Assembly: GCA_015501585.1 (NCBI GenBank)
Contig: JADNRY010000210.1
Span: 1 to 64,000, forward strand
DNA from: Rhodocollybia butyracea
Taxonomy: Eukaryota; Basidiomycota; Agaricomycetes; Agaricales; Omphalotaceae
Direction: 5' to 3'
Length of the DNA: 64,000 nucleotides
In this document: positions 18,415-63,316 of the stretch, piece after piece
Position numbering within the stretch: position 1 is the stretch's first letter
How the letters are laid out: every line of letters starts with the position of its first letter
Made by a program: the position numbers and the translations under genes
The notes under the pieces: generated by a model
The model's input: only the letters and a program-made list of their open reading frames with translations
The model's database searches: none
What the model was told of the DNA's origin: nothing

Positions 18415-18929
18415 TGTTGAAACTAGATTACCGCTTATGAGTCGTATCTAATCAGTAATGTGAGTCGACTAGACGCACTTGCTATACGATCGATGAACTG
18501 TTGATATATGCTATGTTGAAACTCACCCTCAAACACTAGACGCAGCCTCTACGCAGGTTCGTATAGATGTAGTCAATTATGCCATTCGCTATTAGTCTTA
18601 TGATACATAGCTTGTACGCTGCCTTGCAGTACCTATGAACAATACCTATAGAATTACCATACGGACTCCATCTTCTAGGTACATTATGCACATGTATATG
18701 CACTATGTTTAGCAGTACAACTCAACTAAACTCATACATTGTTATAGGGTTTATTATATTCTGTAGTATAAATACTGTAGATATTTTCCTGTAACAATAA
18801 CCAAGAATCCTACTATTCGTCTGGACACTTGTTCTGCTCTCAACAAGCACTCTTACAACTCCTGTAACATCCTTACACTCTCAGGTGAGTATGCTGTCGA
18901 CCTTGTGTTGACTGACCGCTGTTTCTACA
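18415..18929 (+). repeat. Copia 3' LTR
   Basis: Same ends as the 5' LTR. Scattered substitutions and a one-base deletion relative to it show the element is not brand new. Confidence 0.95.
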
Positions 18930-20660: not shown

Positions 20661-22044
20661 ATCTGCAGTACCATTTATCCCAAAGGAATCAATTCTTGAA
20701 CAGGTTTATGGTCAACATTTGAATTGCTATATTTCTTTATGTAATGGACATAATGATGGGTGGTCTTACTTGCAAAGTGCACTGCTTGGGCACACTGCTA
20801 GAGTGCAGTCAGTTGCATTCTCTGTAGAGGGCAGAAGGATTGTGTCTGGCCCTTCTGACCACTCAGTGAGAGTCTGGGATGCAGAGAGTGGGAAACCAGT
20901 GGGAAAGCCCTTGCAAGGTCATACTAGCTCTGTCATGTCAGTTGCATTCTCCCCAGATGGCAGAAGGATTGTGTCTGGCTCTGAAGACAAGTCAGTGAGA
21001 GTCTGGGATGCAGAGAGTGGGAAACCATTGGGAAAGCCCTTGGAGGGTCATAATTGGAGTGTCAACTCAGTTGCATTCTCCCCAGATGGCAGAAGGATTT
21101 TGTCTGGCTCTTCTGACTACTCAGTGAGAGTCTGGGATGCAGAGAGTGGGAGACCAGTGGGAAAGCCCTTGGAGGGTCTAACTATGTCATGTCAGTTATA
21201 TTCTCCCCAGATGGCAGAAGGATTGTGACGGGCTCTTCTGACAAGTCAGTGAGAATCTGGGATGCAGAGAGTGGGAGACCAGTGGGAAAGCCCTTGGAGG
21301 GTCATACTAACTCTGTCATGTCAGTTGCATTCTCCCCAGATGGCAGAAGGATTGTGTCTGGCTCTGAAGACAACTCAGTGAGAGTCTGGGATGCAGAGAG
21401 TGGGAGACCAGTGGGAAAGCCCTTGGAGGGTCTAACTATGTCATGTCAGTTATATTCTCCCCAGATGGCAGAAGGATTGTGACGGGCTCTTCTGACAAGT
21501 CAGTGAGAATCTGGGATGCAGAGAGTGGGAGACCAGTGGGAAAGCCCTTGGAGGGTCATACTAACTCTGTCATGTCAGTTGCATTCTCCCCAGATGGCAG
21601 AAGGATTGTGTCTGGCTCTGAAGACAACTCAGTGAGATTCTGGGATGCAGAGAGTGGGAAACCAGTGGGAAAGCCCTTGGCGGGTCATACTGACCAAGTC
21701 AGGTCAGTTGCATTCTCCCCAGATGGCAGAAGGATTGTGTCTGGCTCTGGTGACAGCTCAGTGAGAATCTGGGATGCAGAGAGTAGGAAACCAGTGGGAA
21801 AACCCTTCAAGGGTCATACTTACTCTGTCAACTCAGTTACACTCTCCCCAGATGGCAGAAGGGTTGTGTCTGGCCCTTCTGGCATGCCAGTGCAAATTCA
21901 TGATGCAAACATTGACAAACTTCCAAATGAACATATAGACTCTATCTTACCCACTCAACCCTCCCCATACTCCAACCAGATCAATTATGAATTACCTCTT
22001 CTAACTCCTGGCCCCACCACTCCCTTGATGATGCAAGGCTCATC
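20661..22044 (+). pseudogene. NLR segment 3: nine WD40 repeats with duplicated frameshift
   Basis: After a linker (FIPKESILEQVYGQH) come nine WD40 units of 43 residues (129 bp), each GH...SVAFSPDGRRIVSGS.D.SVR.WDAESG.PVGKP. Such arrays form the ligand-facing propeller of NACHT-WD40 proteins and are hypervariable. Repeats 4 and 6 share an identical 4-bp loss in ggtctaactatgtcatgtca, shifting the frame near 21180 and 21434. Segments 4+5 and 6+7 are a 254-bp tandem duplication. The near-identity of units indicates ongoing homogenisation. The last unit is degenerate and leads to a proline-rich stretch cut by the solo LTR. Confidence 0.9.
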
Positions 22045-22560
22045 TGTTGAAACTAGATTACCGCTTATGAGTCGTATCTAATCAGTAATGTGAGTCGACT
22101 AGACGCACTTGCTATACGATCGATGAACTGTTGATATATGCTATGTTGAAACTCACCCTCAAACACTAGACACAGCCTCTACGCAGGTTCGTATAGATGT
22201 AGTCAATTATGCCATTCGCTATTAGTCTTATGATACATAGCTTGTACGCTGCCTTGCAGTACCTATGAACAATACCTATAGAATTACCATACAGACTCCA
22301 TCTTCTAGGGTACATTATGCACATGTATATGCACTATGTTTAGCAGTACGACTCAAGTAGATTCATACATTGTTATAGGGTTTATTATATTCTGTAGTAT
22401 AAATACTGTAGATATTTTCCTGTAACAATAACCAAGAATCCTACTATTCGTCTGGACACTTGTTCTGCTCTCAACAAGCACTCTTACAACTCCTGTAATA
22501 CCCTTACACTCTCAGGTGAGTATGCTGTTGACCTTGTGTTGACTGACCGCTGTTTCTACA
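22045..22560 (+). mobile_element. Solo copia LTR
   Basis: A full LTR of the 11946 family with an exact 5-bp target duplication, tcatc, at 22040-22044 and 22561-22565. No internal sequence remains, so it formed by LTR-LTR recombination after insertion. It interrupts the C-terminal tail region of the NLR-type gene. Confidence 0.95.
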
Positions 22561-23922: not shown

Positions 23923-24669
23923 CGACTGCTCCAGGTTCAAGACTGTAGCGCTAACGTGGGTAACTAAGCCTAGACAACTCTTAGAACTAAGTCGAGAGAA
24001 GCCTAGTTGGGGTGTACGAGTGTACGAGGGAACCAGGTGTGTATGTCCAAATCAATTAACCAAAACCAAAACCAATACAACAAAACTAAGATTCTCCTAG
24101 GCAAACTCTGGCTCTAGCTAGAATAGTAATCTCGAGGTTTGTCAACAACCCTAGGCAAACTCTGGCACTAGCTGCTGTGATGCCGTAAAGTCCTCGACCA
24201 AACTCTGGGCCAAGCTACGATATTGTGAGTGAACTTAATCACTAGGAACTCATACCACAATCTTATTGGCTTGTCTAACTTTGTGAAGAAGTCAACTAAG
24301 GAACCCTCACTCTGGAGCTGAATAATCCCTTACTAGAAGCCGTCCCCTCTAAGGAAGCAACTAGATTTGAGTTGATCTGGAGTTCGAGAGAACTCTACAC
24401 ACTTAAATTTGATCAAGATAATAATGGGCTTTGCGAAGCGCGTGAAGTTTATTACTTTCTTAAGATAACCAAGTCAGGAGGCGTCACGCTACTGATCCCG
24501 TGGGGACGTTCTACGGAGCACTGGTCTTAGCAGTCAAGTTGAGGGCAAGAAACTTGTCTTATTGAATAAATATATCTGACTTATATACTGAGTAGAGAGA
24601 GTTTAATACAAAAAATAGATGAAACAGATACGGAGAGAGATGGAAAGAGAGTGGAACAGAGGAATCTGG
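23923..24669. repeat. LTR-like or decayed repeat left of the chromovirus
   Basis: No gene. The motif caaactctggctctagct recurs with variation three times between about 24099 and 24215. A minus-strand TATA-like gtatataag lies near 24580. This may be part of another LTR cut by the chromovirus, but ends are not identifiable. Confidence 0.3.
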
Positions 24670-25418
24670 TGTAAGGATCTAGGCGGATCCTTATTGCGAC
24701 GGGTTGATGTACTATCTCGAATAGAAGCGGCGGAACGTTTCCGACGGGATGATTCGATGATAGTGTACTCGATCTGGGAATAGCGACGACGTGAAACGTA
24801 CGAGCGGAATCCGGAAGTGTAATAGAATGAACCGTACGAGTAAGCCTAGGAACGGAATAGGTTTCCGACTCTAAGGGTAGGACCCGCTGGGCGCAAGCGT
24901 TTTCGAATACGAGTTATTGGCGGCGGCAAGTCGAGCGGAAGCTGACTTGATAGAGCGCAATGAATCGGAATCGAAGAGAGTATATTGCGGAGTGAAGAAA
25001 ACGATAGAGTGAAGAAATAGAGCAAAAGAAACTGATAAGTCGGGAAATGAGTCGGTAACTGGGGGGTTGTTTCAATATAGCAAATCTAGAGTATCAGAGA
25101 TATCGACGAGTATTTAAGAGTAAGGAGGATATACAGGGTCGTGAAAAGTACGTAGACAATCAGTTAAGGTGAAAGGGAAAGTACTACAAGGGACGAGCGG
25201 GAACGGAAATAATACAAGGGCATATCTCGGAATGGAACAAGGCAAGTGGAGAGACGGAAAGGTAGTGAGTAAGACTTGTGGAAGAGTTAGTAATAGGTAA
25301 TTATGGCGGTTGTGATTGCGCCATCGAGAAGAAGTCGGGAGCGGAACTAATGGGATAAGTCGGGAGAGCGGAACCGACGGAATGAAACGAGAATAGAGCG
25401 GGAGTACGGGGCATGACA
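24670..25418 (-). repeat. Chromovirus 3' LTR
   Basis: Plus-strand ends tgtaaggatct...gggcatgaca. 749 bp, two differences from the copy at 40182-40930. Reads as the 3' LTR for the minus-strand element. Confidence 0.95.
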
Positions 25419-25433
25419 TTACCCCCCCCTTCA
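25419..25433 (-). promoter_or_regulatory. Chromovirus polypurine tract
   Basis: The minus strand reads gaaggggggggtaa directly before the LTR. This fixes the element's orientation as minus. Confidence 0.8.
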
Positions 25434-25634
25434 GGCTCCGAGCCCTCGAGGAGTAGGACTCGTATGTGATTGTGACTCGGGTGCTATCGGCGTCGTCGGG
25501 ATACGTAAGAATGCTCCCGAGAGAAGCTTCTCCGATCGTCGAGTCATGCAGGGTTGAACTTTTTGGTGGCTGAGTAATAACTTCTCCTTCTCTAACCACC
25601 ACCTGCATCGCTGCTGATCGTCCTCGACTGTACA

Positions 25635-28238
25635 ATGTCTGAAGCCGCCCACCGCTCTGCTTGCTTTAAAATCCACAGCGTCGAAACTTCGTTTATCCTA
25701 GAACATGCTGGCATTTTCGAATCCACTCGTGCTGAAGTGAGATGTTCCTTATGTCGAGAAACCGCTAGCGCCTGCATCCGACCCGACGAATCCCTTACTT
25801 GTAACTTGTGTCACAAGCGCAAGAAACAATGCGACTTTTTTACTCTCCTTCGGTTCTGCGCGTACGCGAATCTGGAAGGAATTCATGTATCGGAAGCTGT
25901 TGCTCGATTGCGCGGGGCTCCCAAAATCCTAGACTTCCCTGCAGAATTGTACAAGAAGGCGTTGAAGGTTTTAGAGGCTCGGAGTAATCGTCCCAGTGAA
26001 TTGGGCCGCATTATGGATGAACGGGAGCGTCTGTTTCCACAGGCTGACGAGGATACTGAGAGATTGAGGGAGTTCATAGCGACGGACAGGGCGCAAGATC
26101 CCAGTCGTGGTGGAGTTGTCGTCGAGAAACGTCGGAAACACCCCAAGAAGATGAAGAAGGCGAAGAATCCGGAGAAGTTGCGCGATGTTCCTTCATCACA
26201 GTCGCATGATCGTCACGGCCCTCTTCGTGTTCTCATCCCAGCACTTCCGCGAGTTGCCGCTCCCGTTCCTCTTGCTCCTATTCCGTTACCAACCATTGTT
26301 TCCCCAACTTCACCCCCTCATCCTTCTTCTTCGACGGACCCTTCTCTACGAACCAAGCGTGCGGCTCCCGTAGAAGCTGACTCGAACCGCAACGTTCGAC
26401 CTCGCTTAGACAACTCTATTCCATTGGCTCCTACCCGCGCTCCTGTCGATATGGGTAAGATGATTCCCCATGTCCCCCTTCCCTCGCAGGACTTGAACGC
26501 CCAATTCCACTCTCGAGGGTATAACTTGGAGCAGCAATCCTTCCTGGCGGATTTTGTTGGTAATCATCGCTCGACCGTCCAGGAACTTCAAGAGGAGCGG
26601 GATCGTGCAGCGCGTTATCGCTCGGAGAGGGATCACTTGCGACAGGAACTCGCTGAGGTAACTTCTCGTAGTGCGGGTTTCGAAGCGGAAGCGCACGTAG
26701 AACGTACTCGTGCAGAACTGCTTGCCGTGCAGTTGAAGGAGTCGACCTCGTCATCCGCGATGTTGCGGAAGGAATTCTTGAAATCCAGGGAACGGACTAA
26801 GGAACTTGAGCAGCGGCTTGCTGTGAGGCCCCCAATGGTAACGGATTCGGAGGAGTTCTTGCATTTGGAAGAAGTGAGTATTCTTCTGGGCAATTATCTT
26901 ACCGCTCCCTGACTTTTCCACTCGCAGGAGAATCGTCGTTTACGCGCCTCAGAGGATCACCTTCGCGAAGAGCTGAAGCGGGCGGAAGGAACTTTCGAGG
27001 CTATCCAGAGTAATCATGAAGAAGTGTTGCGTCGGAACGATCGCATTGTGGAGGCAAGTCGTCGAGTTCAATGGGGGAAGGAAGCTTTGGAATCTCAGTT
27101 GCGCGAGGCTCGGTACGAGATGAGTGCCTTGGGAAACATGCTGAAGAGTGCCGCTGGTTCCTCCAACGATTCCTTGGTCCGAAAGCTTCAGTCCGACCGG
27201 GAACTTTTGATACTGGAGCGCAACATTGCGCTCGAGTATGCGCTCATGCTCCGCCAACTGGATCTTCCCGGGTTCATCAACCGATTCGAGCAACGCGTAA
27301 CGGAACCCGTGTTCCGATTGTACAACTTGTTGAGCGTTTCCGACGATCCCGCCGTGGCCGATTCTCCTCTGTTTGTCGAAGCGCATTCCGCCCTTTCCGA
27401 CGCCATTCCTTCCATTACTAACGAAGCTTGTCGATCCCAATTGGCCCTTCGTATGGTTCTGGAAGACTTCGATTTGCAGTACCCGCACGTTCGCCGACTT
27501 CTGCAACGTTCTTCCAGCCATCGTAGTGAGCAAACGTTGGCCAGAAATGCCGGCTTTGAAGCGGTGATTTCATCCATCGAGCCTGTATTTGATCAGGATC
27601 GTACAATCCGGTACGGGCGCTTTCTACAATTCACCCCCGACCTCTTCCCGTTGCAAAACCTTCGTGACGCCCAGGGTTCCTCCCTCCGCGAGGCGATTAG
27701 GGGGTTACTGGATGGGTTAGATGTCGTGGCCTATTCCCCCAGCTCGCCAGTTCTTCCCGGAACCGTCAATTCCTCCGTGAATTACTCGCCGCTCGCCAAT
27801 CCTTCCTCCTCTCCTGCAGTGCCCGCTGAGCGTGTTATTCCCTCGGCGATGGTTACTGTAGGTACCCAAACGTCGCCCAATGCACCTGAACCACTAGAAG
27901 ACATGGAAGACCTTGATTATATGAGCGATGGGGAGATTTTCGGTAGTCGCAATGAGGAGGAGATCGAGGTGGATGAACTTGAAGACGAGGATTCTTCGGC
28001 TGGAGTCGTCGTTGTCGAGAGTGGGGCGTCAACGGGTATCCTGGATTTGGAGGTTTCCGTGGTCGTGGACGATGGTATGGATGTGGTTGTTGACGCAATC
28101 GGTTCCGTGGATGGTAATGCCGAAGTAGTTTCCTCCGTCCCGAGTCCTTCTTTGTTCCTTCCCGACCCCAATAATCCCTTGTTCCTTCCCTCCAGTGAGC
28201 CTAGTTCAACCGGTAGTACTTTGCTAGAAACGTCGTAA
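25635..28238 (+). CDS. Antisense gene inside the chromovirus: Zn2Cys6-like, coiled-coil protein, 849 aa, spliced
   Basis: Exon 1 (25635-26873) and exon 2 (26928-28238) join in phase 0 across a 54-bp intron (gtgagt...ctgac...gcag). The predicted protein starts MSEAAHRSACF. Cys 37, 40, 47, 56, 59 and 66 have spacing CX2CX6CX8CX2CX6C, matching the fungal Zn2Cys6 formula; the basic block HKRKKQ lies in the second half (CNLCHKRKKQC), whereas canonical activators carry it in the first. A basic stretch follows (KRRKHPKKMKKAKNP), then a proline-rich linker, a coiled coil from about 305 to 480 spanning the intron, and an acidic segment near 735-765. It is antisense and tail-to-tail with pol. Its role is unknown; DNA or nucleic-acid binding is an inference. 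The conserved frame through a splice junction argues that it is a real gene. Confidence 0.7.
26874..26927 (+). other. Intron, 54 bp, in the antisense gene
   Basis: Donor gtgagt after GAAGAA, branch-like ctgac at 26909-26913, acceptor cgcag. It contains an in-frame stop (tga near 26911), and splicing keeps the coiled-coil frame open: exon 2 continues ENRRLRASEDHLREELKRAE. Confidence 0.8.
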
Positions 28239-28544
28239 GGTAATAGAGGAGAAAGTGCGTTACTGTATATACTTAGTCGCTATTGTTTTCTTTTTTTGTA
28301 TTTTCTTTTTTCTTGTTAATCGTCGTTATCGTGTTTTGGTGTGCTTTGATTGTACATAGATCGTCTGTATATAGGTAATAAGCCAGGAATCTTTTGTTAG
28401 AAAGGAATGAATGAAAAGGATTTAGATTGTCTATGAGGCGGAGTTGAATCCGCCGATGTGAGTTGTCGTTTAGGGAGATAGGGAAAATGGAGATTGGTCG
28501 GAGTTGCGTCCGCCTGAGTGTGGGGTGTAAGGGTAGGGACTTGA
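28239..28544. other. Gap between the antisense gene and the chromodomain fragment
   Basis: Convergent 3' ends with no ORF of note. A cggagttg-atccgcc / cggagttgcgtccgcc motif is repeated twice (about 28440 and 28500). Confidence 0.4.
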
Positions 28545-28811
28545 CTATTCTTCACCCTCCCTTTCTTCGTCCTGCGCGAGGCTGTCTAGCTTTCGGAGTT
28601 GGGCGGGTGTGGGTCCGCGCTTTCTGGGGTGTTCCTGGTGCCATCGTTTTAGCATGTCGAGGGATCCTGCCATTCCCTCCCACGAAACCCATGAGTTGAA
28701 CGCGGCGTCGTATCCTGTCCATTTAATGAGGTATTCGATTTCCTGTGGTCTCCCTGCTATCGGTCTGGAGTTCTTTATGGTTTCGACCTCGTGCTCCAAG
28801 TCGCCTTGCAC
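28545..28811 (-). pseudogene. Chromodomain, C-terminal end of pol, severed
   Basis: Encodes VQGDLEHEVETIKNSR followed by IEYLIKWTGYDAAFNSWVS, the chromodomain core with the aromatic residues and the YLIKW strand, then a charged tail ending at the stop at 28545. In chromoviruses this domain follows the integrase and steers integration to modified chromatin. Here it is separated from the integrase frame by the palindrome at 28820-32202. The host-side frame is open up to the insertion junction, but an ATG in that frame (28842-28844) lies within the palindrome, so any product from it would be a free chromodomain peptide. Confidence 0.85.
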
Positions 28812-28819
28812 GTATACGG

Positions 28820-31800
28820 AGGCGATGTGGAGCCCATAATGCAATGTAAGATGGATGTGGCCACATCCTGCATTGCAATTTAAGATGGTTCTGTCCGCTG
28901 CGGCAAATGTGCCTGCATTGCAATGTGGTATATGTCACAGCCTGGCCTTTGAAAAATTACTGAATTAGGGAATTTTTCGCTGTGTGTAACATGAAGCTTG
29001 CATCTGCATGTCACATCACAACTGTTTTAGCCAAATTTAGAAATATAACAGTTGGCCATATTAAGCTATGGCTAAAGCGGCGGCGCGGGTACACATTTGA
29101 TGGGGTCATGTGACTCGCCGATTGCAGGTTTAGATAGCTTCGATAAAATAGGCAATTTACGAGCCTAATTGGGATGTTTCTGTATGGGTAGCTAGCCCAA
29201 AAAAGGCTATGGATAGTGTATTAATATTTTAGCACTGTACCTCGATGGATGGGGCACCGTAATGGGTTGGATTGAATGAAAAGATTTAGATTACCTTCGG
29301 TCAAAGCTGTACATCACTGCCTAATTGGGAATGCCAGCAAAGCGGCCTAAAAGCCTGCTTGTACAGCAGATATCCTTGCTAATGGGGATGTACATAGTGT
29401 CTTTAGATATATCAGAGGTCCCTGAAGCGAAATCACAGCCAGAGCGGCGGTCAAAGCTGTTTTATTACCATATTTAGAATGCCAGCAAAGTGGCCTAAAA
29501 GCTTGTTTATGCATGGGTATTCTACCTAATAGCAGTCTACACAGTGTTTATAGATGCACAGTAGGTACCTAGAGCAAAATTAAAGCTGGTATGTGGTGTA
29601 ATAGTGGCCCTGCTTCGAGGTTTGGGACTGTGGCTGTGCTTTAAAAAATCGAAGTAAAGGTAGGGATGTTTGATATACTAGTGGTACAGGCATGATTTCT
29701 ACATAGTATATATATACCTGAAGCGAAATTAGAGCATTCTGTGGAGAGAATAAGCTGTAATTGCCAGCTCTAGGCCGGAGGAGGTCAAAGCTGTATGTCC
29801 AAATAGGGAAATATATCATTACATACAGGTGGTGTTGAGTCGAAGTTGGGCTCAGTAATGGCATGGCCTCTCAAGGTCTGAGGTTTGGAATACATATCTG
29901 AGTAGTGTAGTATACTAGCTACGCCCTCCAGGTGTTATATTTCCCAATATGTGGGCAGGAGGATGTACATGGAGTGATCAATGGTGAGTAACCATCAAAA
30001 TTCGCATTTTTGAGGAATTAAATACTAATAATGAGTGCCTAAGCGCAGGTAGCACCTCAAAGCTTGGTAGGTAGACTTTACTACATGGTATACACTCGAT
30101 CCGTGTCCAAGAACCACTAATATGGCACCAGAGGCGATGGTATGTACTGATCTTTATAGATTTTGCCTGAAAACTCGATTTTTTGAGGAATTAGCATAGA
30201 ATATTGGGGCCTTGAGAGTAGCCAAGAGGCTAAAACGTCGTATATAGACTGTACTACATAGTACTAGACGTCGCCATATGCAAAAACGATTTATAGAGCA
30301 CCTGAAGCGATGGTATTCCCTGATCTGTATGGATTCTGCCAAAAAATGCGATTTTCAGGACATAAAACATGAATAGAGTACGCTATGGACCTCAGACTAT
30401 GCTCAAACTTTGAGAATCATGTATTCGAGTCATATATACGCCCGCCAGATTAAAAGGTTTCAGTATATACATCTCAATGTCACGATCTGAACTTTGAGCC
30501 AAGTAGAGATATCCTAGAGTGCACTTACCACAGTATCGTTCCATGGAGGTACCCAGATGCAGATATAACACCTGGTAATCGTTGAATTAGATTCGAAGAC
30601 ATGTTTCCCAAGTTTTTGGTTTGATCTGAGACTTGTAGCACACTCTATGCCTGTTTTATTTCCTGAGAATCGCATTTTTTGGCAGAATCCATACAGATCA
30701 GGGAATACCATCGCTTCAGGTGCTCTATAAATCGTTTTTGCATATGGCGACGTCTAGTACTATGTAGTACAGTCTATATACGACGTTTTAGCCTCTTGGC
30801 TACTCTCAAGGCCCCAATATTCTATGCTAATTCCTCAAAAAATCGAGTTTTCAGGCAAAATCTATAAAGATCAGTACATACCATCGCCTCTGGTGCCATA
30901 TTAGTGGTTCTTGGACACGGATCGAGTGTATACCATGTAGTAAAGTCTACCTACCAAGCTTTGAGGTGCTACCTGCGCTTAGGCACTCATTATTAGTATT
31001 TAATTCCTCAAAAATGCGAATTTTGATGGTTACTCACCATTGATCACTCCATGTACATCCTCCTGCCCACATATTGGGAAATATAACACCTGGAGGGCGT
31101 AGCTAGTATACTACACTACTCAGATATGTATTCCAAACCTCAGACCTTGAGAGGCCATGCCATTACTGAGCCCAACTTCGACTCAACACCACCTGTATGT
31201 AATGATATATTTCCCTATTTGGACATACAGCTTTGACCTCCTCCGGCCTAGAGCTGGCAATTACAGCTTATTCTCTCCACAGAATGCTCTAATTTCGCTT
31301 CAGGTATATATATACTATGTAGAAATCATGCCTGTACCACTAGTATATCAAACATCCCTACCTTTACTTCGATTTTTTAAAGCACAGCCACAGTCCCAAA
31401 CCTCGAAGCAGGGCCACTATTACACCACATACCAGCTTTAATTTTGCTCTAGGTACCTACTGTGCATCTATAAACACTGTGTAGACTGCTATTAGGTAGA
31501 ATACCCATGCATAAACAAGCTTTTAGGCCACTTTGCTGGCATTCTAAATATGGTAATAAAACAGCTTTGACCGCCGCTCTGGCTGTGATTTCGCTTCAGG
31601 GACCTCTGATATATCTAAAGACACTATGTACATCCCCATTAGCAAGGATATCTGCTGTACAAGCAGGCTTTTAGGCCGCTTTGCTGGCATTCCCAATTAG
31701 GCAGTGATGTACAGCTTTGACCGAAGGTAATCTAAATCTTTTCATTCAATCCAACCCATTACGGTGCCCCATCCATCGAGGTACAGTGCTAAAATATTAA

Positions 31801-32202
31801 TACACTATCCATAGCCTTTTTTGGGCTAGCTACCCATACAGAAACATCCCAATTAGGCTCGTAAATTGCCTATTTTATCGAAGCTATCTAAACCTGCAAT
31901 CGGCGAGTCACATGACCCCATCAAATGTGTACCCGCGCCGCCGCTTTAGCCATAGCTTAATATGGCCAACTGTTATATTTCTAAATTTGGCTAAAACAGT
32001 TGTGATGTGACATGCAGATGCAAGCTTCATGTTACACACAGCGAAAAATTCCCTAATTCAGTAATTTTTCAAAGGCCAGGCTGTGACATATACCACATTG
32101 CAATGCAGGCACATTTGCCGCAGCGGACAGAACCATCTTAAATTGCAATGCAGGATGTGGCCACATCCATCTTACATTGCAATATGGGAACCACATAGGG
32201 TG
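28820..32202. mobile_element. Palindromic (fold-back / long-TIR) element, 3.38 kb, in chromovirus pol
   Basis: The whole insert is an inverted repeat about an axis at 30510/30511. Outer arms 28833-30352 and 30669-32188 (1520 bp each) look near-identical wherever I compared them; the central 316 bp is a recognisable but diverged continuation. An 8-bp direct repeat, gtatacgg, flanks it (28812-28819 and 32203-32210; nine bases with one mismatch if the symmetric ends are used), the size range of MULE and foldback elements. It has no transposase. ORFs of 94 and 62 aa appear twice as mirror copies and are not recognised. Ends carry repeated tgcattgcaat and gatgtggccacatc motifs. A diverged relative lies near 44930. 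Confidence 0.9.
30353..30668. repeat. Diverged centre of the palindrome
   Basis: The inverted match weakens sharply at 30352/30669 (for example cataaaacatgaatagagt against aataaaacaggcatagagt) and becomes patchy towards the axis, leaving a spacer-like centre. Confidence 0.7.
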
Positions 32203-35200
32203 GTATACGGGGGGTGGCGGTGATGGGATTCGTCGGAATGGATCAGAGTGGTGGGGTTTTAGTCGGTTGACATGGAAGACGTTGTGGATGCGTCGGAGAT
32301 CACCCGGTAGATCTAGTCGGTATGCATGAGATCCAATACTTTCGAGGATGGTGTATGGTTCCGTCCACTTGTGGTCGAGTTTCTTTGTTGGTCTCCTTGT
32401 GCGGATATTTTCCATGTTTAACCAAACTTTGTCGCCTTTCTTCCAGTCTGGTGCTTCCCTTCGTTTCCGGTTGGCGTAGTGTTTGTAGTCCTCGTTTGCG
32501 TCGGCAATGTGTTTCTGTAGGGATCTATGAAGTTCCGCTAAATCCTGTGCGAAGGTGTTGGCTTCTGTTGCAGATACTCCCTCCTGTTCTAAATCGATAG
32601 TGAGTCTCGGGTGATATCCTTTGTTGGCGAAAAACGGTGAGACTCCCGTTGCCGTGTGAGGGGAGTTGTTGTATACGAACTCCGCGAGCGGGAGTAGATC
32701 CTTCCAGTCATTTTGGTCGTAAGCGCAATATACGCGCAAGTAGTATTCGAGCGACTGGTTGACACGTTCCGTCTGTCCATCCGTTTCGGGATGAAACGCT
32801 GTTGATAGTCGCGATTCGACGTGTAGGATTCTGGTGAGTTCTTTCCAGAACTGGGAGATGAAAAGAGAACCGCGATCGGATGTGATGTCGGATGGTAGTC
32901 CGTGCTTGGAGAAGACATGAGTGATGAATAGAGAGGCAAATGCTGGCGCATCGTCGGTAGTGTGGCATGGGATGAAGATAGCTTGTTTGCTAAGGCGACA
33001 AACTACTACCAGGATCGCATCGAATTTTTCGTCTCCGCTGGGCGGCAACTGAGTAATATGGTCTAAAGAGATGGAAGACCATGGTCGTTGTCCGATCGGT
33101 AGTGGTTTTAAATTACCGTAAGGCTTCTGTCGATTAGCCTTAGCCCGTTGGCATGGGTGACAGGAGCGGACATAGTCGCGAATGTCTGTAGTGTGATGTG
33201 GCCAGAAGAAAAGTTGATTGACCATCTTCTTCGTACGCTTCTCGCCTGGGTGTCCCCTTAGCTTGTGGTCGTGGAAATGCGCTATAACATCGCGTCGCAA
33301 ATCCTTCGCGTCGGGTACGTAGATACGCTTGTTCTTCATCAACAATCCTCCTATGAAGGAGAAACCGTTATCCTTTCCCGAAGTAATGTCTTCGATGCTG
33401 GACTCCATGAACTGGTCCTGCGTCGATTCGCGTATTCTAGAAATCAGTAGATCTTCGTTTAGTAGCTGGGAAGCGTTTAGACGTTCAGGCGGAATAAGGA
33501 TCCGTTCGTTATGTCCTTTAGCCTGCTTCCGTTCCCATCCCCGCTTCGGATAGACATCCGCCCTTCGTGTCAAGGCGTCGGGTTTCGCTCCTAAGGTTCC
33601 TGGGCGGTAGTTGATATTGAAATCGTATCCTGACAGTGTTTCCGCCCATCGCGCTTGGCGGGAAGTGAGTTGTTTCGTAGTGGTGAAGTATTGCAGGTTG
33701 TTGTGATCTGAATAAACCTGGATCCTGAATCTCGAACCTTCGCAATAAGCTCTCCATTCCCTGAAGCATGCTACGATGGCTAGTAACTCCTTGTCGTAGA
33801 TGTCGTAGTTGAGTTCCGCCGGAATCATCGAACGGGTATGGAAGGCGATAGGGTGGATTTCCCCCGTGGATGGATCGAGTTGAGAGAGTATTCCTGCGAT
33901 TGCCCAGTCGGAAGCGTCGCATTCGAGTATGACGGGTAAGTCGGGATTGAAATGGCCTAGTACGGGGGCGGTAGTGAAAGCTTTTTTCAGTAGTTCAAAC
34001 GCGTCCTGACAAGCGGAGTCCCAGACCCAAGCTACATCTTTCCGGGTTAGTCTAGTGAGGACCTTGGTAATACCCGAATAGTTATCTATGAATCTCCTGT
34101 AGAAGTTGGCGAAACCAAGGAAGGATTGGAGTTCTTTGACATTCCGAGGAGCGGGCCAGTCGAGAATAACGGATACCTTTGAAGGATCCATGGAAATCCC
34201 TTTTGGCGATATGATCATGCCTAGGTATTCGACAGTATCAGTATGGAAGAAACATTTCTCTGGCTTAACGTGAAGATTGTTGTCGCGTAGTCTTTGTAAT
34301 ACCGTCCGTACATGCTCCTCGTGTTTGTTCTCGTCGTCGGAAAAGATGAGTATATCGTCTAGGTAGACCACTACGCAAACATCGACGAGGTCGTGGAAGA
34401 TGTCGTTCATGAAAAACTGAAAGGCTGCGGGAGCATTTGTCAATCCGAAAGGCATAACCAGGTACTCGAAAGCTCCATATCGCGTTCTGAAGGCGGTTTT
34501 CCATTCGTGTCCGTCGGCAATGCGCACGTTGTTGTATCCTACTCGTAGGTCAAGTTTGGTGAAGACCTTGGCTTGGCTGAGTCGATCCACAAGAGTTCCG
34601 ACGAGCGGAAGGGGGTACCGATTCTTTATGGTGAGGCGATTGAGTGCTCGATAATCTACGCAAAGTCGAAGAGATCCGTCCTTCTTTTTTGCGAATAATA
34701 CTGGCGCTCCCGTTGGTGAACTAGATGATCGAATAAATCCCTTCCCTAGCATCTCGTCGATATAGTCTTTTAGCGATTTAAGTTCCGTAGCCGACATGTT
34801 GTAAAGTTTTCCTAGAGTCGGCATGGTGTCTCCTTCCGTCTCGATGCGGATATCATATGGTCGGTGAGGTGGAAGCTCTTTAGCGTCGCCAGGAGAAAAT
34901 ACATCGAGGTAGTCGTGGTATTGTGCCGGTACCAAGTCCTTCCATGCTTGCGCTTCCTTGTCCGCGGTTGTAGAAGCTTTATCCGAAGGATTGTCAGTCT
35001 CGGGGTTCGCTGGTTCTCCTAATGTACTGGCTTTAAGGTGTTCCGAATTATTAGCAGGGGACACATGAAGGAAAAATGCAGGAGTCCCGTCTCGAATTAA
35101 CCTATCCATTGCTGCGGCACCAATCATACTGATTTTTGGTCCTGTCGCGTCGGGATCTGATTCTCTTTCTACCCAAGCGGGACCTTTCCTCCTAAGGTAA

Positions 35201-36324
35201 TCCTTCTTTCTGGAAGCAGCTCCCTTTGGTGTCATCGGTTTTCGCGGAATCTTTCGAGCTTTGGTTGTCGTTTGGTCGGGTGTTGTGTTGTGACTCCATT
35301 TCTCTGTTCCTTTCTTCCATTGTCGGATGTCGTCCTCCATTGATTGGAAGGGTTCATCGTTGGGTAAGAGTAGTGGACCGTCTGGATCTTCGTCAAAGGG
35401 TAGAGTGGTCGGTTTGTTGGCTGTGTATTCATCCTCGTCGAGGATTTCTTCTATTGTCGTCGCATATTTAGATTCCGAGGGTGTTGGGGTTTGCGTTTTT
35501 GTACTTTGGTTTGCTGAATGGGATGTCGGAATGAATGGTTCGTCCATCGTTAATAGGATAGGGTCGTTTGGGTTTCCGTTGAATGGTAGTGTCGTTGGTT
35601 GGTTAGATGGGTCGTTATCCTCGTCAAGGGTGTCCTCGATAGTAACTGGGAATCTGGATTTTGAAGGTTGTGTTGTCGAGATGGTTGTCGGATGGTTTTG
35701 GCCATTCCCTACCCCCTCCTCTACGCCCGTACCTCCCTCCTCGTCCTCTATAATATCCGCTCCTACTACCGCTGAAATTCTAACGTTTCTATCCCGGAAC
35801 GTCATAGAAAGATCCGCCCAGTCCACGACGGGATTGTACTGGCGAAGCCACGAAAGTCCCAAGACGACCGGTGCCGCTGGATGTAATCGTGTCACTAGGA
35901 ATTCGACTAATTGAATAGTGCCGTCTTCGAAACTGATGGTGTCGGTGTAGGAATGGGTGATTTGACCTGCCGATGAAGGCTGGCCGTCGAATAACTCGAG
36001 CGGAATTGGTTCCTTCAGTTGAGTAAGGTTTTCTGGGTGTTCGTTGGCGACTTTCGCGTCAATGAACGGGCGGGATGCTCCGGAATCAACCAGAGTGTTG
36101 TGGCAGATGTCCTTTTCGTCAGACATAGGGAAGCGGGTTCGAATGATAAAGGAATTTTTGTGTAGAGATCGTAGACGTGCTGAAAAACCGTTATAGTTGA
36201 GGTATGGGGCCCTCAAGAGCATGGAACTATCGATGGGAGGACTCCCAGTTGTTCCCTCGTCCCCATGGGAGTCCTCTAAGCTTTTCCCGATTCCGTTTTG
36301 TCGTCCACTACCTCTACCTGCCAA
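32053..36324 (-). CDS. pol: Chromovirus Pol: protease, RT, RNase H, integrase; C-terminus replaced
   Basis: The open frame carries protease LVDSGASRPF (about residue 80 of the frame), reverse transcriptase with CVDYRALN, MPFGLTNAP and the catalytic YLDDILIF, RNase H with LECDASDWA and YDKELLAIV, and integrase with an HHCC zinc finger (H..H..CHPC) and the D,D35E residues in SLDHITQ, TSDRGSLF and the E of DGQTERVN. The frame has no ATG near its start (its first start-like codon is TTG at 36324); it is in the -1 frame relative to gag and is most likely made as Gag-Pol by frameshifting at 36282-36288. About the last 50 codons, from 32202 to the stop at 32053, come from the palindrome, so the product lacks the chromodomain. 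Confidence 0.95.
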   Translation of the reverse strand: MAGRGSGRQNGIGKSLEDSHGDEGTTGSPPIDSSMLLRAPYLNYNGFSARLRSLHKNSFIIRTRFPMSDEKDICHNTLVDSGASRPFIDAKVANEHPENLTQLKEPIPLELFDGQPSSAGQITHSYTDTISFEDGTIQLVEFLVTRLHPAAPVVLGLSWLRQYNPVVDWADLSMTFRDRNVRISAVVGADIIEDEEGGTGVEEGVGNGQNHPTTISTTQPSKSRFPVTIEDTLDEDNDPSNQPTTLPFNGNPNDPILLTMDEPFIPTSHSANQSTKTQTPTPSESKYATTIEEILDEDEYTANKPTTLPFDEDPDGPLLLPNDEPFQSMEDDIRQWKKGTEKWSHNTTPDQTTTKARKIPRKPMTPKGAASRKKDYLRRKGPAWVERESDPDATGPKISMIGAAAMDRLIRDGTPAFFLHVSPANNSEHLKASTLGEPANPETDNPSDKASTTADKEAQAWKDLVPAQYHDYLDVFSPGDAKELPPHRPYDIRIETEGDTMPTLGKLYNMSATELKSLKDYIDEMLGKGFIRSSSSPTGAPVLFAKKKDGSLRLCVDYRALNRLTIKNRYPLPLVGTLVDRLSQAKVFTKLDLRVGYNNVRIADGHEWKTAFRTRYGAFEYLVMPFGLTNAPAAFQFFMNDIFHDLVDVCVVVYLDDILIFSDDENKHEEHVRTVLQRLRDNNLHVKPEKCFFHTDTVEYLGMIISPKGISMDPSKVSVILDWPAPRNVKELQSFLGFANFYRRFIDNYSGITKVLTRLTRKDVAWVWDSACQDAFELLKKAFTTAPVLGHFNPDLPVILECDASDWAIAGILSQLDPSTGEIHPIAFHTRSMIPAELNYDIYDKELLAIVACFREWRAYCEGSRFRIQVYSDHNNLQYFTTTKQLTSRQARWAETLSGYDFNINYRPGTLGAKPDALTRRADVYPKRGWERKQAKGHNERILIPPERLNASQLLNEDLLISRIRESTQDQFMESSIEDITSGKDNGFSFIGGLLMKNKRIYVPDAKDLRRDVIAHFHDHKLRGHPGEKRTKKMVNQLFFWPHHTTDIRDYVRSCHPCQRAKANRQKPYGNLKPLPIGQRPWSSISLDHITQLPPSGDEKFDAILVVVCRLSKQAIFIPCHTTDDAPAFASLFITHVFSKHGLPSDITSDRGSLFISQFWKELTRILHVESRLSTAFHPETDGQTERVNQSLEYYLRVYCAYDQNDWKDLLPLAEFVYNNSPHTATGVSPFFANKGYHPRLTIDLEQEGVSATEANTFAQDLAELHRSLQKHIADANEDYKHYANRKRREAPDWKKGDKVWLNMENIRTRRPTKKLDHKWTEPYTILESIGSHAYRLDLPGDLRRIHNVFHVNRLKPHHSDPFRRIPSPPPPVYHPMWFPYCNVRWMWPHPALQFKMVLSAAANVPALQCGICHSLAFEKLLN
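36237..36288 (-). promoter_or_regulatory. -1 ribosomal frameshift signal between gag and pol
   Basis: In gag frame the minus strand reads TCG GGA AAA GCT TAG, containing the slippery heptamer G GGA AAA (36288-36282) two codons before the gag stop. After a 5-nt spacer (gctta) comes a perfect 11-bp stem, gaggactccca (36276-36266) with tgggagtcctc (36247-36237), around an 18-nt loop. A -1 slip continues exactly into the pol frame (SLEDSHGDEG). Heptamer, spacer and hairpin match the established -1 frameshift design. Confidence 0.85.
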
Positions 36325-38633
36325 TCCGTCAATGCTTCCCCGTCCTCACTCACCGAAAACACTGCTCGTAACTTCTGTCTAGGCACTTCCGTCCCCGGCG
36401 GGTCTGTCGCTGCCTTCGAAAGGTCTTCCGGTTTGGTGCATTCCGCTTTAAAATGTCCCATGCCTCCACACTGCAAACATAGGCCTCTTCTTCGTCGCTC
36501 ATTCATGAGCTTCCGCGTATTGTCGTCCCATAGGGTTCCCGCTCGTAAGAGCAATGATCCGTCGAAGTCACCCTGGTTACTGCAGCTGCATTCCTGTCCT
36601 GATTCTAGCTGAATATCCTCTTCGTTAATCGCGACAAGCTCGTCGGTAGTTGAGTTATCCTGCCATGCTGCTGCTCCCCTTGTTGCATTGTTTCCGCCTG
36701 GTCGTTGGGGGCCCTTATTCTGACCTGGGATGAAGTTCCGTCGTGGAACATACCAGTTACTTGTCTGGGTTTCCCCCGTCAGCGGGTTTTGGAATTGTAG
36801 CGGGGGCGGTAGCGTTGCCGACCAAGTGTTTGCCTGCGGAAGGAACCCTGGTAAGCCTCCCTGTTGCGTTCTACCTTGTTGGGACGGATTCTGACGCCAT
36901 GAAGCATCAAGTTCCTGGTAGCGACGAATCCATTCTGTCAGCGTCGTTGGCCTCATTGGTTGCGAAGAAATATTGACGTCAAGCCAGCTGGCGACGGATT
37001 TCCGGAGGCGGTTAATCATGGCGTGTTCGTTATACCCAGTGCGATACGCCAATTCCTCCCATCGGATGATGAAGGACGCGAAGTCTTCGTTTTGAAGCTG
37101 TCGAATCTCATCAAGTCGAGTTTGGGCATGGCCCATCGGATCGAATATACCAAACCTAGCCTGGAATTCCTGTACGAACGCGTTCCATTCATGAATCGCG
37201 GCATTCTCTATTCCTGTAGCTTCTTCCTGGCGCGTCAGGTTGTCGTAATGAGAGGCTGCTGCTTCCCGTAGGAATGAGATCGCATAGGCGACGCGACTGG
37301 CTTCGTCTTCGAATAGTGTTGGTTTCGCCTTAAACACTCGTAATACCGATGAGAGCCATGGAAGCCAAGCATCTTTATTCCTTCCCGTAAAATTGTCTGG
37401 TTTCGCCGTGTCTAGTTTCGATTCCAAAGCGATTTTCTCTTTCCGAGCATCTGCCAAAGCCCGGTCCACTCCGGGAGGAGTTTGATCCCCTCGTCCTCCT
37501 CGTTGGATGTTTAGCGGAATCCATTGATTTGGTGGGTAGTAGACATATGCCTGATCGTTTGGGGGATTCGCCATGTGTGGAGGTGGTTCTCTTCCTGGGG
37601 GTCCAGGAGGTTCTGGAGGGCCTTGGAAGCCTCTTCCTGGCGGTAATCTATGCGGGACCCCTGGCGGCGGCATTGGTGCCTCATCTTCATCGTCGTTGTC
37701 GTTATCGCTACCGTCGCTGTCTCCCCCGTCGTCGGGATCGTGTCCTCCTCCCCCTCGTGGCGGTCCTCCTCCCCCTGTAGCCCGTTGTGGAGCGGCTGTC
37801 CCCTGTTGGCGTGGTGGCGATCTTGGTGTTTGCGGCGCTATATTTCTGGATTCTCTGGGTAAAAATCCAGTTGCACGCGTGTCCGGCATGGAGTGTAAAT
37901 TCATCGTATGGGTTCTTGGTTGTTGACTTCTGGGCGATACTCCCTGACCACTGTATGCGAACGTGGATGGTACGAATGACTGAGGCGTTGGGATCGGTTG
38001 TTGGAAATACTGCTGAGGATTGTGCATTACGACTGGAGGTTGATGCAACGATTGCTGTACCGCGATTCTGGGTGGTTGAACGCTCTGCTGTTGTTCGTAG
38101 GGTACTGGCACTGGCAGATTGTACATCGAGGCTGTTGTCGCGTATTGTTCCCAAAAACCTGGTCGAGATTGCGTTGTTGCTGTCGCAATCACAGGGGGTT
38201 CTAACGGTATCTGGTGTGGTGGTTCCTGTCGATGGAATCCAAAATCCCAAGCCGTTTGCCCTTGTCCTGATAAGGTCGTCGCTGCTTGTCCCAAGGAATG
38301 CGCCGAATTACTGCCGCTAGCGAATGGGTTTTGGTCCGACATGAAATGAACAGGTAACGTGGACTGGGCAGGTGTGGATTCTAGAGGTGGACTCTTTGGT
38401 TTAGTAGCGTATGGAATGGGAGGAGAAGTAGTTTTTGGCCTTTGCAATTCCATATTCCCTGCTCGTGCCGTCCATTCGCTTAATCGCGCCTGGTCTCTAG
38501 GAGGTACTCCCCCTTGTAGAATTCTAGGTGATGTTGGCGCTTGTCCCGATGCTGGCCTGGAAGGCGGTTTAGGCGGTGAGAGAGGTCGGTCCTGGGCTCG
38601 GTTAACGGTTGCCGATTGTGAGGTGATAGTCAA
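36276..38633 (-). CDS. gag: Chromovirus Gag
   Basis: Long proline- and glutamine-rich N-terminal half, then a capsid-like retrotransposon gag region (PDNFTGRNKDAWLPWLSSV, ... FVQEFQARFG, ... ASFIIRWEELAYRTGYNE) and a C-terminal CCHC zinc knuckle CLQCGGMGHFKAEC. The frame's first start-like codon, 11 nt after the preceding ORF's stop, is TTG; the first ATG is codon 61 (38453). The gag frame also stays open upstream, overlapping the preceding ORF by at least 100 nt, so Gag may be made as a fusion with that ORF by frameshift or splicing, or from the internal ATG. Gag is unusually long (785 codons). Confidence 0.9.
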   Translation of the reverse strand: MTITSQSATVNRAQDRPLSPPKPPSRPASGQAPTSPRILQGGVPPRDQARLSEWTARAGNMELQRPKTTSPPIPYATKPKSPPLESTPAQSTLPVHFMSDQNPFASGSNSAHSLGQAATTLSGQGQTAWDFGFHRQEPPHQIPLEPPVIATATTQSRPGFWEQYATTASMYNLPVPVPYEQQQSVQPPRIAVQQSLHQPPVVMHNPQQYFQQPIPTPQSFVPSTFAYSGQGVSPRSQQPRTHTMNLHSMPDTRATGFLPRESRNIAPQTPRSPPRQQGTAAPQRATGGGGPPRGGGGHDPDDGGDSDGSDNDNDDEDEAPMPPPGVPHRLPPGRGFQGPPEPPGPPGREPPPHMANPPNDQAYVYYPPNQWIPLNIQRGGRGDQTPPGVDRALADARKEKIALESKLDTAKPDNFTGRNKDAWLPWLSSVLRVFKAKPTLFEDEASRVAYAISFLREAAASHYDNLTRQEEATGIENAAIHEWNAFVQEFQARFGIFDPMGHAQTRLDEIRQLQNEDFASFIIRWEELAYRTGYNEHAMINRLRKSVASWLDVNISSQPMRPTTLTEWIRRYQELDASWRQNPSQQGRTQQGGLPGFLPQANTWSATLPPPLQFQNPLTGETQTSNWYVPRRNFIPGQNKGPQRPGGNNATRGAAAWQDNSTTDELVAINEEDIQLESGQECSCSNQGDFDGSLLLRAGTLWDDNTRKLMNERRRRGLCLQCGGMGHFKAECTKPEDLSKAATDPPGTEVPRQKLRAVFSVSEDGEALTDWQVEVVDDKTESGKA

Positions 38634-38644
38634 AGTGTTCCTGT

Positions 38645-40153
38645 TTAGACCGGCGGTTGTTGCGCTATTGTCGAGAATGTTGGAGACAACTCGTATGGCT
38701 CGTGTGTCCTGGGTACTCGTTCCCCTATATCTAGTTGTCGTACCAGATATGTGGTGGGGTCCCTAGCATAGCGCCTTGCGTTCTCGAAAAGGTTTTCTCC
38801 TTGGATTGCTAATTCATGCGTTACGTGTGGCATACCTAGCATAAAGCGATCCGACCGAGCTATCCAGTAAAGGTAGCGATCCCTACTGCTGCTTAAATGA
38901 GAAGCGTTATCTTCGCGAATACTTGCCATAGCCCTTTCCTGGTCAGCGTCACTCCAAATTGGGGTGAACAAGTATTGCGTGTGTCCGAATTCAACGTGAT
39001 GTTCCCTAGTTTCGCGCGCCGGGTTGGGCATAACCATTGCGCTAGTTGCCGTGAGTACGCGTAGTCTTTCCCGACGAATATTAACTGTTCCGGTGGTTGT
39101 TGGCGGGATGGTTACCGTACGAGCGCGCTGTTCCAGGTAGATCCTTGTTTCGAATATAGGAGAGTATTCTGTTAGCGAAGGTTCTCTTCTATTGCGTGCA
39201 TCTATAGCCATTTCGTAAAGAGCGCGGGCTTCGGGATTCATAGTATCCAGGTTCCTGGTACCGTCTCCTACCAGCGGATACCCGGAAGGTATGGGCGTAT
39301 GTTGTTCGTTGTGAGTGGCGCGTCGCAATACGGTCGGGTCCAAAAGAAGATTGTACATCCAGAGTACGTCGTTATAGTTGGTGACCGATTCTAAGAAACT
39401 CCTGGTCGTGGCATTAGCGAGTACTTCGTCGAATTGAGTAGAAACTAATGCGAAGAACCGTTGCCGCAAGTCGTCGAAAGTTACAGTAGGTTGAACTCGA
39501 ATACCCATTTCGTGAAACAAGTAATGAAGGACAGCCAAAATACCGGTTGTAGTCACCCTTTGGATACGAATAAGATCCTCAAGATTGAGCATCGTCTGCG
39601 AACTCGCTGTTGGGAGGACCATGGGCATTCCGTTAGCGGTCATGGGTGGGCTGAGGACTCTATGTTGGCGGCTGTAGTCGGCCGTGTAGTTAATGCGCCA
39701 ATCCTGTGATCCATGGTGAAAGGTCGGTTGTGCCGGAGATGTGGTAGCGTCCCTAGGGGTTGGAATCCGTTGTTGAGCACCCGGGGTTATTACCTCTTCT
39801 GTGACGGGAGAGAGTTGGGTCCTGGTACTGGTAGGCGGAAAGTTAAACCGAATCTGAGGGACGTTTTCCGTGACGGGTGTTGGAACCAAGGTTGTGCCAT
39901 GAGCTGGTGGGTATTGGGGAGGCGTATAGCTTATACCCGGCGTCATGGGGTTATCGCCTGGTTCGGGAGGTGGATTGAATAGAGCAAAGTTTCCTGGGAG
40001 AATTTCGGTAGGGGTATCGTCAAAAGACGTCGATGATGTCTCTTGGGCTGGTGCCGAAGAACTCGAAGGGGCTGAAGTGTCTTTGTTCTTCCCCTTACGA
40101 TTCCTTTTGCTGTTTTTTGTCATGCTGGAGTCTCCGGTCGTCGTATAAGACAT
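38645..40153 (-). CDS. Chromovirus upstream ORF1, 502 aa, unknown function
   Basis: ATG at 40153, 29 nt after the 5' LTR. The N-terminus is basic and Ser/Thr-rich (MTKNSKRNRKGKNKD), then proline-rich, then a folded-looking C-terminal half (TGILAVLHYLFHEMGIRVQP, ... VTNYNDVLWMYNLLLDP, ... YLYWIARSDRFMLGMPHV). I recognise no domain. Well-studied Tf1/sushi chromoviruses have no such ORF before gag. It ends at TAA 38647-38645, with the gag frame overlapping in the -1 register. It could be an N-terminal extension of Gag or a separate accessory protein. Confidence 0.75.
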   Translation of the reverse strand: MSYTTTGDSSMTKNSKRNRKGKNKDTSAPSSSSAPAQETSSTSFDDTPTEILPGNFALFNPPPEPGDNPMTPGISYTPPQYPPAHGTTLVPTPVTENVPQIRFNFPPTSTRTQLSPVTEEVITPGAQQRIPTPRDATTSPAQPTFHHGSQDWRINYTADYSRQHRVLSPPMTANGMPMVLPTASSQTMLNLEDLIRIQRVTTTGILAVLHYLFHEMGIRVQPTVTFDDLRQRFFALVSTQFDEVLANATTRSFLESVTNYNDVLWMYNLLLDPTVLRRATHNEQHTPIPSGYPLVGDGTRNLDTMNPEARALYEMAIDARNRREPSLTEYSPIFETRIYLEQRARTVTIPPTTTGTVNIRRERLRVLTATSAMVMPNPARETREHHVEFGHTQYLFTPIWSDADQERAMASIREDNASHLSSSRDRYLYWIARSDRFMLGMPHVTHELAIQGENLFENARRYARDPTTYLVRQLDIGERVPRTHEPYELSPTFSTIAQQPPV

Positions 40154-40168
40154 TCCCTAGTCGATAAG

Positions 40169-40181: not shown

Positions 40182-40930
40182 TGTAAGGATCTAGGCGGAT
40201 CCTTATTGCGACGGGTTGATGTACTATCTCGAATAGAAGCGGCGGAACGTTTCCGACGGGATGATTCGATGATAGTGTACTCGATCTGGGAATAGCGACG
40301 ACGTGAAACGTACGAGCGGAATCCGGAAGTGTAATAGAATGAACCGTACGAGTAAGCCTAGGAACGGAATAGGTTTCCGACTCTAAGGGTAGGACCCGCT
40401 GGGCGCAAGCGTTTTCGAATACGAGTTATTGGCGGCGGCAAGTCGAGCGGAAGCTGACTTGATAGAGCGCAATGAATCGGAATCGAAGAGAGTATATTGC
40501 GGAGTGAAGAAAACGATAGAGTGAAGAAATAGAGTAAAAGAAACTGATAAGTCGGGAAATGAGTCGGTAACTGGGGGGTTGTTTCAATATAGCAAATCTA
40601 GAGTATCAGAGATATCGACGAGTATTTAAGAGTAAGGAGGATATACAGGGTCGTGAAAAGTACGTAGACAATCAGTTAAGGTGAAAGGGAAAGTACTACA
40701 AGGGACGAGCGGGAACGGAAATAATACAAGGGCATATCTCGGAATGGAACAAGGCAAGTGGAGAGACGGAAAGGTAGTGAGTAAGACTTGTGGAAGAGTT
40801 AGTAATAGGTAATTATGGCGGTTGTGATTGCGCCATCGAGAAGAAGTCGGGAGCGGAACTAACGGGATAAGTCGGGAGAGCGGAACCGACGGAATGAAAC
40901 GAGAATAGAGCGGGAGTACGGGGCATGACA
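40182..40930 (-). repeat. Chromovirus 5' LTR
   Basis: Plus-strand ends tgtaaggatct...gggcatgaca. Carries a minus-strand TATA-like box (cttaaata near 40630) followed by the predicted transcript start at about 40599. Confidence 0.95.
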
Positions 40931-40931
40931 G

Positions 40932-63260: not shown

Positions 63261-63316
63261 CAAAATGTATGAATGGAAAGCCACTTTCTGACACCGTACA
63301 GTGCTGGGGGCCGCTG

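Follow-up and report, generated by a model that had tools for sequence, protein, structure and literature searches.

An apparently spliced antisense gene of a Rhodocollybia butyracea chromovirus, kept intact by evolution, suggests an element that makes its own regulator

Does a gene that lies antisense inside an LTR retrotransposon belong to the element, and, if it does, what might it do there? The question is raised by a window of 64,000 nucleotides, the whole stretch of Rhodocollybia butyracea DNA that was analysed, in which a plus-strand gene of two exons lies between the chromodomain and the 3′ LTR of a Ty3/gypsy element, antisense to pol. Exon 1 (25635-26873, plus strand; 413 codons) encodes a six-cysteine cluster at residues 37-66, a basic segment and the start of a coiled coil, and exon 2 (26928-28238, plus strand; 436 codons and the stop) encodes the remainder of the coiled coil, a conserved helical region and an acidic C-terminus. 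The exons join in phase 0, to 849 codons plus stop, across a predicted intron of 54 nt (26874-26927, plus strand; GTGAGT...GCAG); a two-exon, 849-aa gene antisense in a gypsy element, as the preliminary description had it, is borne out with its coordinates. From the LTR and polypurine tract to the ATG runs a leader (25419-25634, plus strand). In position, on the opposite strand between pol and the 3′ LTR, the gene is an aORF-3R. We propose, at a confidence that is evenly balanced between acceptance and rejection, that its product would be an accessory regulator of the element’s own LTR.

The element reads along the minus strand. Its LTRs (3′ LTR, 24670-25418; 5′ LTR, 40182-40930) are 749 bp each, with 2 differences (99.73% identity). 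Between them, and likewise on the minus strand, are a 503-aa sense ORF ahead of gag (38645-40156), which is without a Pfam match and is perhaps the gag N-terminus or an additional ORF; gag (36276-38762), with a CCHC knuckle that scores under its own cut-off; pol (32053-36345), comprising protease, RT, RNase H and integrase; and an ORF with a chromodomain (28545-28934; Pfam Chromo, 28.8 bits vs a cut-off of 25.1). Retrotrans_gag, RVT_1, RNase H and Integrase_H2C2 all score above their Pfam cut-offs on the minus strand, and rve falls under its own. RT-RNase H lies ahead of integrase and the chromodomain is at the pol C-terminus, the order of a Ty3/gypsy chromovirus. The chromodomain ORF is split from pol by a palindromic insertion of 3.4 kb (about 28825-32196, no strand assigned; arms 99.4% identical over 1561 bp), in which the last codons of pol and the first part of the chromodomain ORF are located. 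Alignments show pol and chromodomain contiguous in another copy, L009, which passes the insertion point without the palindrome and so provides the empty site. Hence the description of the element as young holds for its near-identical LTRs, but not for the interrupted pol of this copy.

A search of its own genome, in which all 99 candidates were scored, gave 89 matches to exon 1, and since, in addition, LTR-bearing copies are found in different flanks, the gene belongs to the element. The 12 flanks of 30 bp that were compared represent 11 sites, those of L017 and L018 being identical. A host gene standing beside an LTR by chance is ruled out, given that gene and LTR recur at the 11 sites. It had been suggested to test whether homologues lie antisense next to chromovirus LTRs; in 10 of the 14 loci from L009 to L022 pol of the same family is adjacent, invariably antisense. 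As for the others, L021 has a chromodomain piece and no further pol, L010 and L020 have the pol side cut off by the contig end (L010 with 35-39% pol pieces on the far side of its own LTR), and L022 has no pol beside the gene.

Grouped by identity to the window protein, the copies form subfamilies A (86-99% where in frame; L009-L011, L014, L015 and L020, several of them decayed), B (about 68-78%; L012, L013 and L016), C (about 63-72% for L017 and L018, 41-73% for L019) and D (about 34-38% over exon 1; L023-L027, L029, L031 and L032), along with subfamily E (L028, L034 and L035) and a group F (L030 and L033); the degraded L021 and L022 were left outside this grouping. The D loci L023-L027 have a chromodomain fragment in five of five, plus a gag-like piece, and no pol match alongside except for an insertion-derived piece in L025. 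Because they have long flanks in common, the D copies L023, L024 and L027 are not independent. An LTR end precedes the gene in subfamily D, but no clean LTR pair was found there. In subfamily E, pieces of pol adjoin the gene of copy L034 in antisense orientation. Across subfamilies, an LTR end with a polypurine tract occurs 201-246 bp ahead of the ATG in 16 of 25 copies by pattern, and a variant form can be made out by eye in four more (L014, L028, L029 and L035), giving 20 of 25; neither was recognised in L019, L025, L030, L033 or L034. Seen from the LTR, the gene follows 13 of the 41 listed matches (from the best 40 of 271 candidates scored) at a distance of up to 1 kb, which in nine cases is 216-219 bp; those with no adjoining gene may be 5′ or solo LTRs.

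These upstream sequences bear on whether the gene was originally a host gene, captured or ancestral, that was taken up antisense at the DNA level and that in some copies may serve the host. One locus looks the part: L030 on C561 (4125-6383, minus strand) is a diverged copy in which neither an LTR nor a leader could be recognised, the exons are long and open, an additional gap resembles an intron and a stop comes early at the C-terminus; it is a candidate for a domesticated or ancestral host gene. The LTR ends and polypurine tracts found upstream of 20 of 25 copies, four of them by eye, speak against such an origin for the family. So does the distribution of homologues, with none in protein searches beyond R. 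butyracea and one JGI source among the candidates sharing most words, although the absence from other named fungi carries little weight since those were the candidates scored. We consider a host-gene origin improbable; it concerns where the gene came from, and does not exclude that the product now regulates the LTR.

Several copies run counter to the regulator reading. The C620 pol copy (92-99%) has no exon 1 match among those listed, and the C463 pol copy retains only 33 residues of the gene. In many gene copies there are stops or frameshifts. Moreover, among the listed pol matches (best 34 of 958 candidates scored), none of those at 52-63% identity has, by eye, an exon 1 match within 10 kb, the closest being C567 at 10.03 kb, which belongs to another pol copy. 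This last observation would suit a replication accessory, a protein acting, much as a retroviral accessory factor does, in particles, in nuclear import or in integration targeting without a role in transcription, which those pol families would not need. A long coiled coil and basic runs would be equally in character for such a protein. However, the acidic tail and the six-cysteine cluster would seem better suited to a nuclear regulator, and an antisense promoter would uncouple the supply of the protein from the genomic RNA, so that we regard a replication accessory as distinctly unlikely.

The preliminary description held that a retroelement with an antisense gene of this kind is not a described fungal arrangement. 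This is wrong, for the Boty element of Botrytis has a chromodomain and carries the antisense gene brtn, and the arrangement therefore has a fungal precedent. The original paper on brtn of the Boty-like elements is reportedly that of Zhao et al. 2011. In the accessible portions of the literature, brtn is described as an antisense gene of the Boty-like elements of Botrytis cinerea (PMC7264820, PMC8365987, PMC4227169), the gag-pol of which contains a CHROMO domain (PMC4227169), and a BRTN-like transcript is reported from Monilinia (PMC5987419). Thus, as far as those portions go, Boty and the window element agree in being fungal LTR elements with CHROMO and an antisense gene between pol and the 3′ LTR, but Boty has an ascomycete host, and the likeness of brtn to the window gene is one of arrangement. 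Within the available parts of the papers that our literature search returned, we recognised no basidiomycete case, no conserved intron in such a gene and no exchange with U3; the accessible part of PMC3248453 does not mention “antisense.”

Plants offer further parallels in the antisense ORFs of Grande (gene23), RIRE2 and Retand (TRP28), according to the available sections of PMC7264820 and PMC11963269, with the TRP28 ORFs present in 97% of Retand clusters (PMC11963269). As these sections describe them, they too lie antisense between pol and the 3′ LTR; they are kept in most copies and are of unknown function, the Grande protein being nuclear and TRP28 predicted to bind DNA (PMC7264820, PMC11963269). 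They differ in their plant hosts, in that the window protein has no TRP28 match, and in that the word “intron” is absent from the accessible part of the Retand paper (PMC11963269), unlike the intron-bearing window gene. From a retrovirus comes HBZ of HTLV-1, an antisense gene with a spliced transcript from the 3′ LTR and a product that dimerises in zipper fashion and acts on LTR transcription, as stated in the available portion of PMC10186651. HBZ is a bZIP protein, however, and we draw the likeness without claiming homology.

Calculating dN/dS across copies, which had been suggested as a check, showed purifying selection. Nineteen loci were examined. Between A and B, dN/dS is 0.12-0.18 at dS 1.07-1.34 (exons 1 and 2: 0.14 and 0.15 for L012, 0.14 and 0.12 for L013, 0.14 and 0.18 for L016), and between A and C it is 0.13 and 0.16 for L017 and L018 and 0.18 and 0.33 for the decayed L019. 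Within A the values rise to 0.21-0.67 (L010, L011, L014 and L015; L009 is without synonymous change), as expected of dead copies, and in comparisons with D, E and F synonymous sites are saturated or nearly so. In wrong-frame controls on exon 1, four frames gave 1.22-1.73; the fifth, a complementary frame with a shared wobble position, gave 0.27, but stops interrupt it 8 times in A and 12-13 times in B. The gene frame alone is stop-free in both A and the B copy L012 over exon 1, at dN/dS 0.14; in the B copy L013 a single stop interrupts this frame. A chance ORF is ruled out by these controls. Third codon positions vary most, with 81, 65 and 193 changes at positions 1, 2 and 3 between A and L013 in exon 1.

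The same numbers weigh on the notion that the antisense RNA itself acts, through double-stranded RNA or interference, with the protein as a by-product. Antisense transcripts of other elements can work as RNA, as the accessible portions of PMC7264820 and PMC10186651 relate. Yet codon-level selection here is confined to the gene frame, and frames remain open over some 800 codons in diverged copies. RNA-only function is disfavoured because the third-position pattern and the frame controls reveal selection on codons, and we rate it as highly improbable.

The intron, too, is kept. Its site and phase are retained in 28 of 29 loci (L004, L006 and L009-L035; L019, with a junction that is not alignable, is counted in the 29), and none of the 29 is intronless. 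Lengths are 51-56 nt, with 62 nt in L022, and the GT-AG donor and acceptor persist while the sequence between them diverges; L016 keeps the intron, its exon ends being about 1.5 kb apart, and L030 and L033 have a second intron-like gap within exon 1. Nine of 11 homologous protein models, which are gene predictions rather than RNA, use the junction; of the others, P0002 has a different donor, and P0006 (from the JGI source, 52% identical) appears, from the protein only, to continue into intron sequence from that very point. In sense RNA the splice sites of an antisense gene are present as their reverse complement. Replication via sense RNA would thus leave the antisense intron unspliced and copy it along, an explanation of intron retention already offered in the preliminary description and one that the absence of intronless loci fits. 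Taken together, these results describe an accessory gene conserved in a chromovirus lineage, antisense, with frame and intron retained and under purifying selection.

What would its product be? The six cysteines, at residues 37, 40, 47, 56, 59 and 66, have the spacing CX2CX6CX8CX2CX6C, which conforms to the Zn2Cys6 pattern CX2CX6CX5-12CX2CX6-8C. Of 25 copies, 21 retain all six; L016 and L034 have one cysteine altered and contain stops, and L020 and L026 have lost the frame. In several subfamilies more than six residues precede the third cysteine. Their retention across subfamilies about 35-41% identical counts for the regulator reading. The label “Zn2Cys6-like” stands as far as spacing goes, this being what the cluster has in common with the Gal4-type regulators (PF00172), but Pfam Zn_clus scores 8.1 bits in the window and 8.9 in L030 against a cut-off of 21, with no match listed for three other family members, and aligns only to the second CX2CX6C. 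Basic residues lie in the first half of the canonical Zn2Cys6 cluster, and in the second half here. Beyond the cluster follow basic runs (165-168 and 171-175), a Pro/Ser-rich stretch (201-250), Pro-free stretches (284-398 and 401-526), a strongly conserved region (about 495-690) and a tail in which the last 149 residues (701-849) include 31 D/E and 2 K/R, for a net charge of -29; a C-terminal peptide ending NPLFLPSSEPSSTGST is common to A, B and E and absent in D. Both the basic block and the acidic C-terminus noted earlier are evident in these figures. Gal4 has the order cluster, linker, coiled coil and acidic part, which the window protein resembles, and the domain order (six cysteines, basic segment, linker, coiled coil, acidic tail) is a point for a regulator.

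AlphaFold2 modelled exon 1 at a mean pLDDT of 55.9 with a single helix at 298-397 (10-residue means of 72-92 from 301 to 400), and exon 2 at 43.2 with an initial helix over its residues 2-75, where pLDDT drops from 89 to about 52. A coiled coil continuing in frame over the intron, as first supposed, accords with this helix, the helical start of exon 2 and the proline-free 401-526. The cysteine region, for which structure prediction had been suggested (residues 30-70), was modelled under pLDDT 50. Foldseek with the exon 1 model gave 11 matches, none at E 0.001; solved structures searched by sequence gave 8, at E 0.063-0.65 only and mostly coiled coils; and no Pfam domain, TRP28 included, was above cut-off in the window protein. 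The low confidence of the cysteine region and the lack of a structure at E 0.001 or of a Pfam domain count against a regulator.

A different line of evidence is the pattern of divergence along the element. In comparisons A-B, A-C and B-C, a block at about 25120-28299 (plus strand) stands out, covering about 300 bp of U3, the leader, the antisense gene and about 60 bp past its stop. Up to about 25119, A and B are 92-100% identical; identity then falls to 52-90% (50-bp bins) over U3 and leader and is 62-80% (200-bp bins) across the gene, returning to 88-96% from about 28300. B-C identity inside the block is mostly 90-98%, dropping to 80-84% in three bins close to where the LTR ends, and is 60-92% over the first 300 bp of the LTR; the U3 block of C is mostly 80-95% identical to that of B. 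Whole-gene identities for A-B, B-C and A-C are 73.9, 91.7 and 72.3%, those of pol 90.3, 90.0 and 86.6%, and those of the first 591 bp of the LTR 90.9, 84.3 and 81.5%. Because the binned identities differ, the gene and about 300 bp of U3 have a history unlike that of the backbone. The simplest reading of these alignments is an exchange, in which the block would apparently be a cassette swapped, for example, by template switching. It may be explained by a regulator moving jointly with its target sites or by mere adjacency at the RNA 3′ end. The variation of A-B pol itself (79-100% per 200 bp) counts against the regulator reading, and the inclusion of U3 in the gene’s block mildly favours LTR regulation. 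CGG direct repeats are sites of Zn2Cys6 proteins. They exceed shuffled sequence in the LTR of A and in the LTR-leader regions of B and of D (the observed number is reached in 5, 1 and 0 of 300 shuffles, respectively), in a test of six regions and three pair types without correction. For C, however, 179 of 300 shuffles reach the observed number although its U3 block resembles that of B, which counts against the regulator reading.

The shared block would also be in keeping with an anti-silencing factor, one that attaches to the DNA or chromatin of the element and opposes silencing by the host, on the model of VANC from the VANDAL transposons of plants. Purifying selection that persists in a repeated element would fit such a factor, as would the cysteine cluster, basic runs and coiled coil, but neither Pfam nor the exon 1 fold search provides a sequence or fold link to known proteins; we think it unlikely, while taking it seriously. 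For LTR regulation, the preferred reading, the sequence of events would be as follows. An antisense promoter in or beside the 3′ LTR would drive transcription, and the transcript would be spliced to give a product of about 850 aa in which an N-terminal six-cysteine cluster is followed by a basic segment, then a flexible linker, a long coiled coil and finally an acidic tail. The cluster probably binds metal, presumably zinc, and the protein, most likely nuclear and dimerised via its coiled coil, would bind DNA at U3 sites and so regulate transcription of the element.

More tentatively, and with doubt outweighing belief, we suggest that this chromovirus lineage may encode a Gal4-like, though not Gal4-homologous, regulator or anti-silencer from a spliced antisense gene, and that protein and cognate U3 sites may move between elements as a cassette. 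Were this true, a single genome would house elements with two or more regulator-promoter specificities, and the gene would persist in relatives without detectable pol (subfamily D). Plant and Botrytis elements are already known to have antisense genes, but not what these do. The present family offers diverged subfamilies in one genome, a conserved intron that would report antisense splicing, a conserved cysteine cluster and a mappable U3 block, and because of these features it becomes directly testable whether the accessory proteins encoded in antisense act on the LTR of their own element.

A few minor features of the locus deserve mention. The leader contains a conserved block near 25522-25558, AGAAGCTTC...GAGTCATGCAGGGTTGAA, which is kept in 6 of 7 aligned subfamily sequences, the exception being L030; it includes GAAnnTTC, which we take to resemble a heat-shock element. 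GTATACGG is present at both edges of the palindromic insertion, the ends of which also match sequence beside the antisense gene in L025. There is no target-site duplication at the window element, since its outer flanks read TCTGG (24665-24669) and GTGAC (40931-40935). GTGAC is also the left flank of L009 (1031-1035 of that locus), which may reflect a mis-join, recombination between two copies or chance; no LTR match was found in the 2.4 kb further along the L009 contig. Rfam gave no match anywhere in the window. Outside the element, a unit of about 129 bp is repeated in tandem at 20679-22002 and by eye reads like WD40 repeats, and a direct repeat of about 515 bp (98%) is found at 18415-18929 and 22045-22560, with further inverted copies near 63300-64000.
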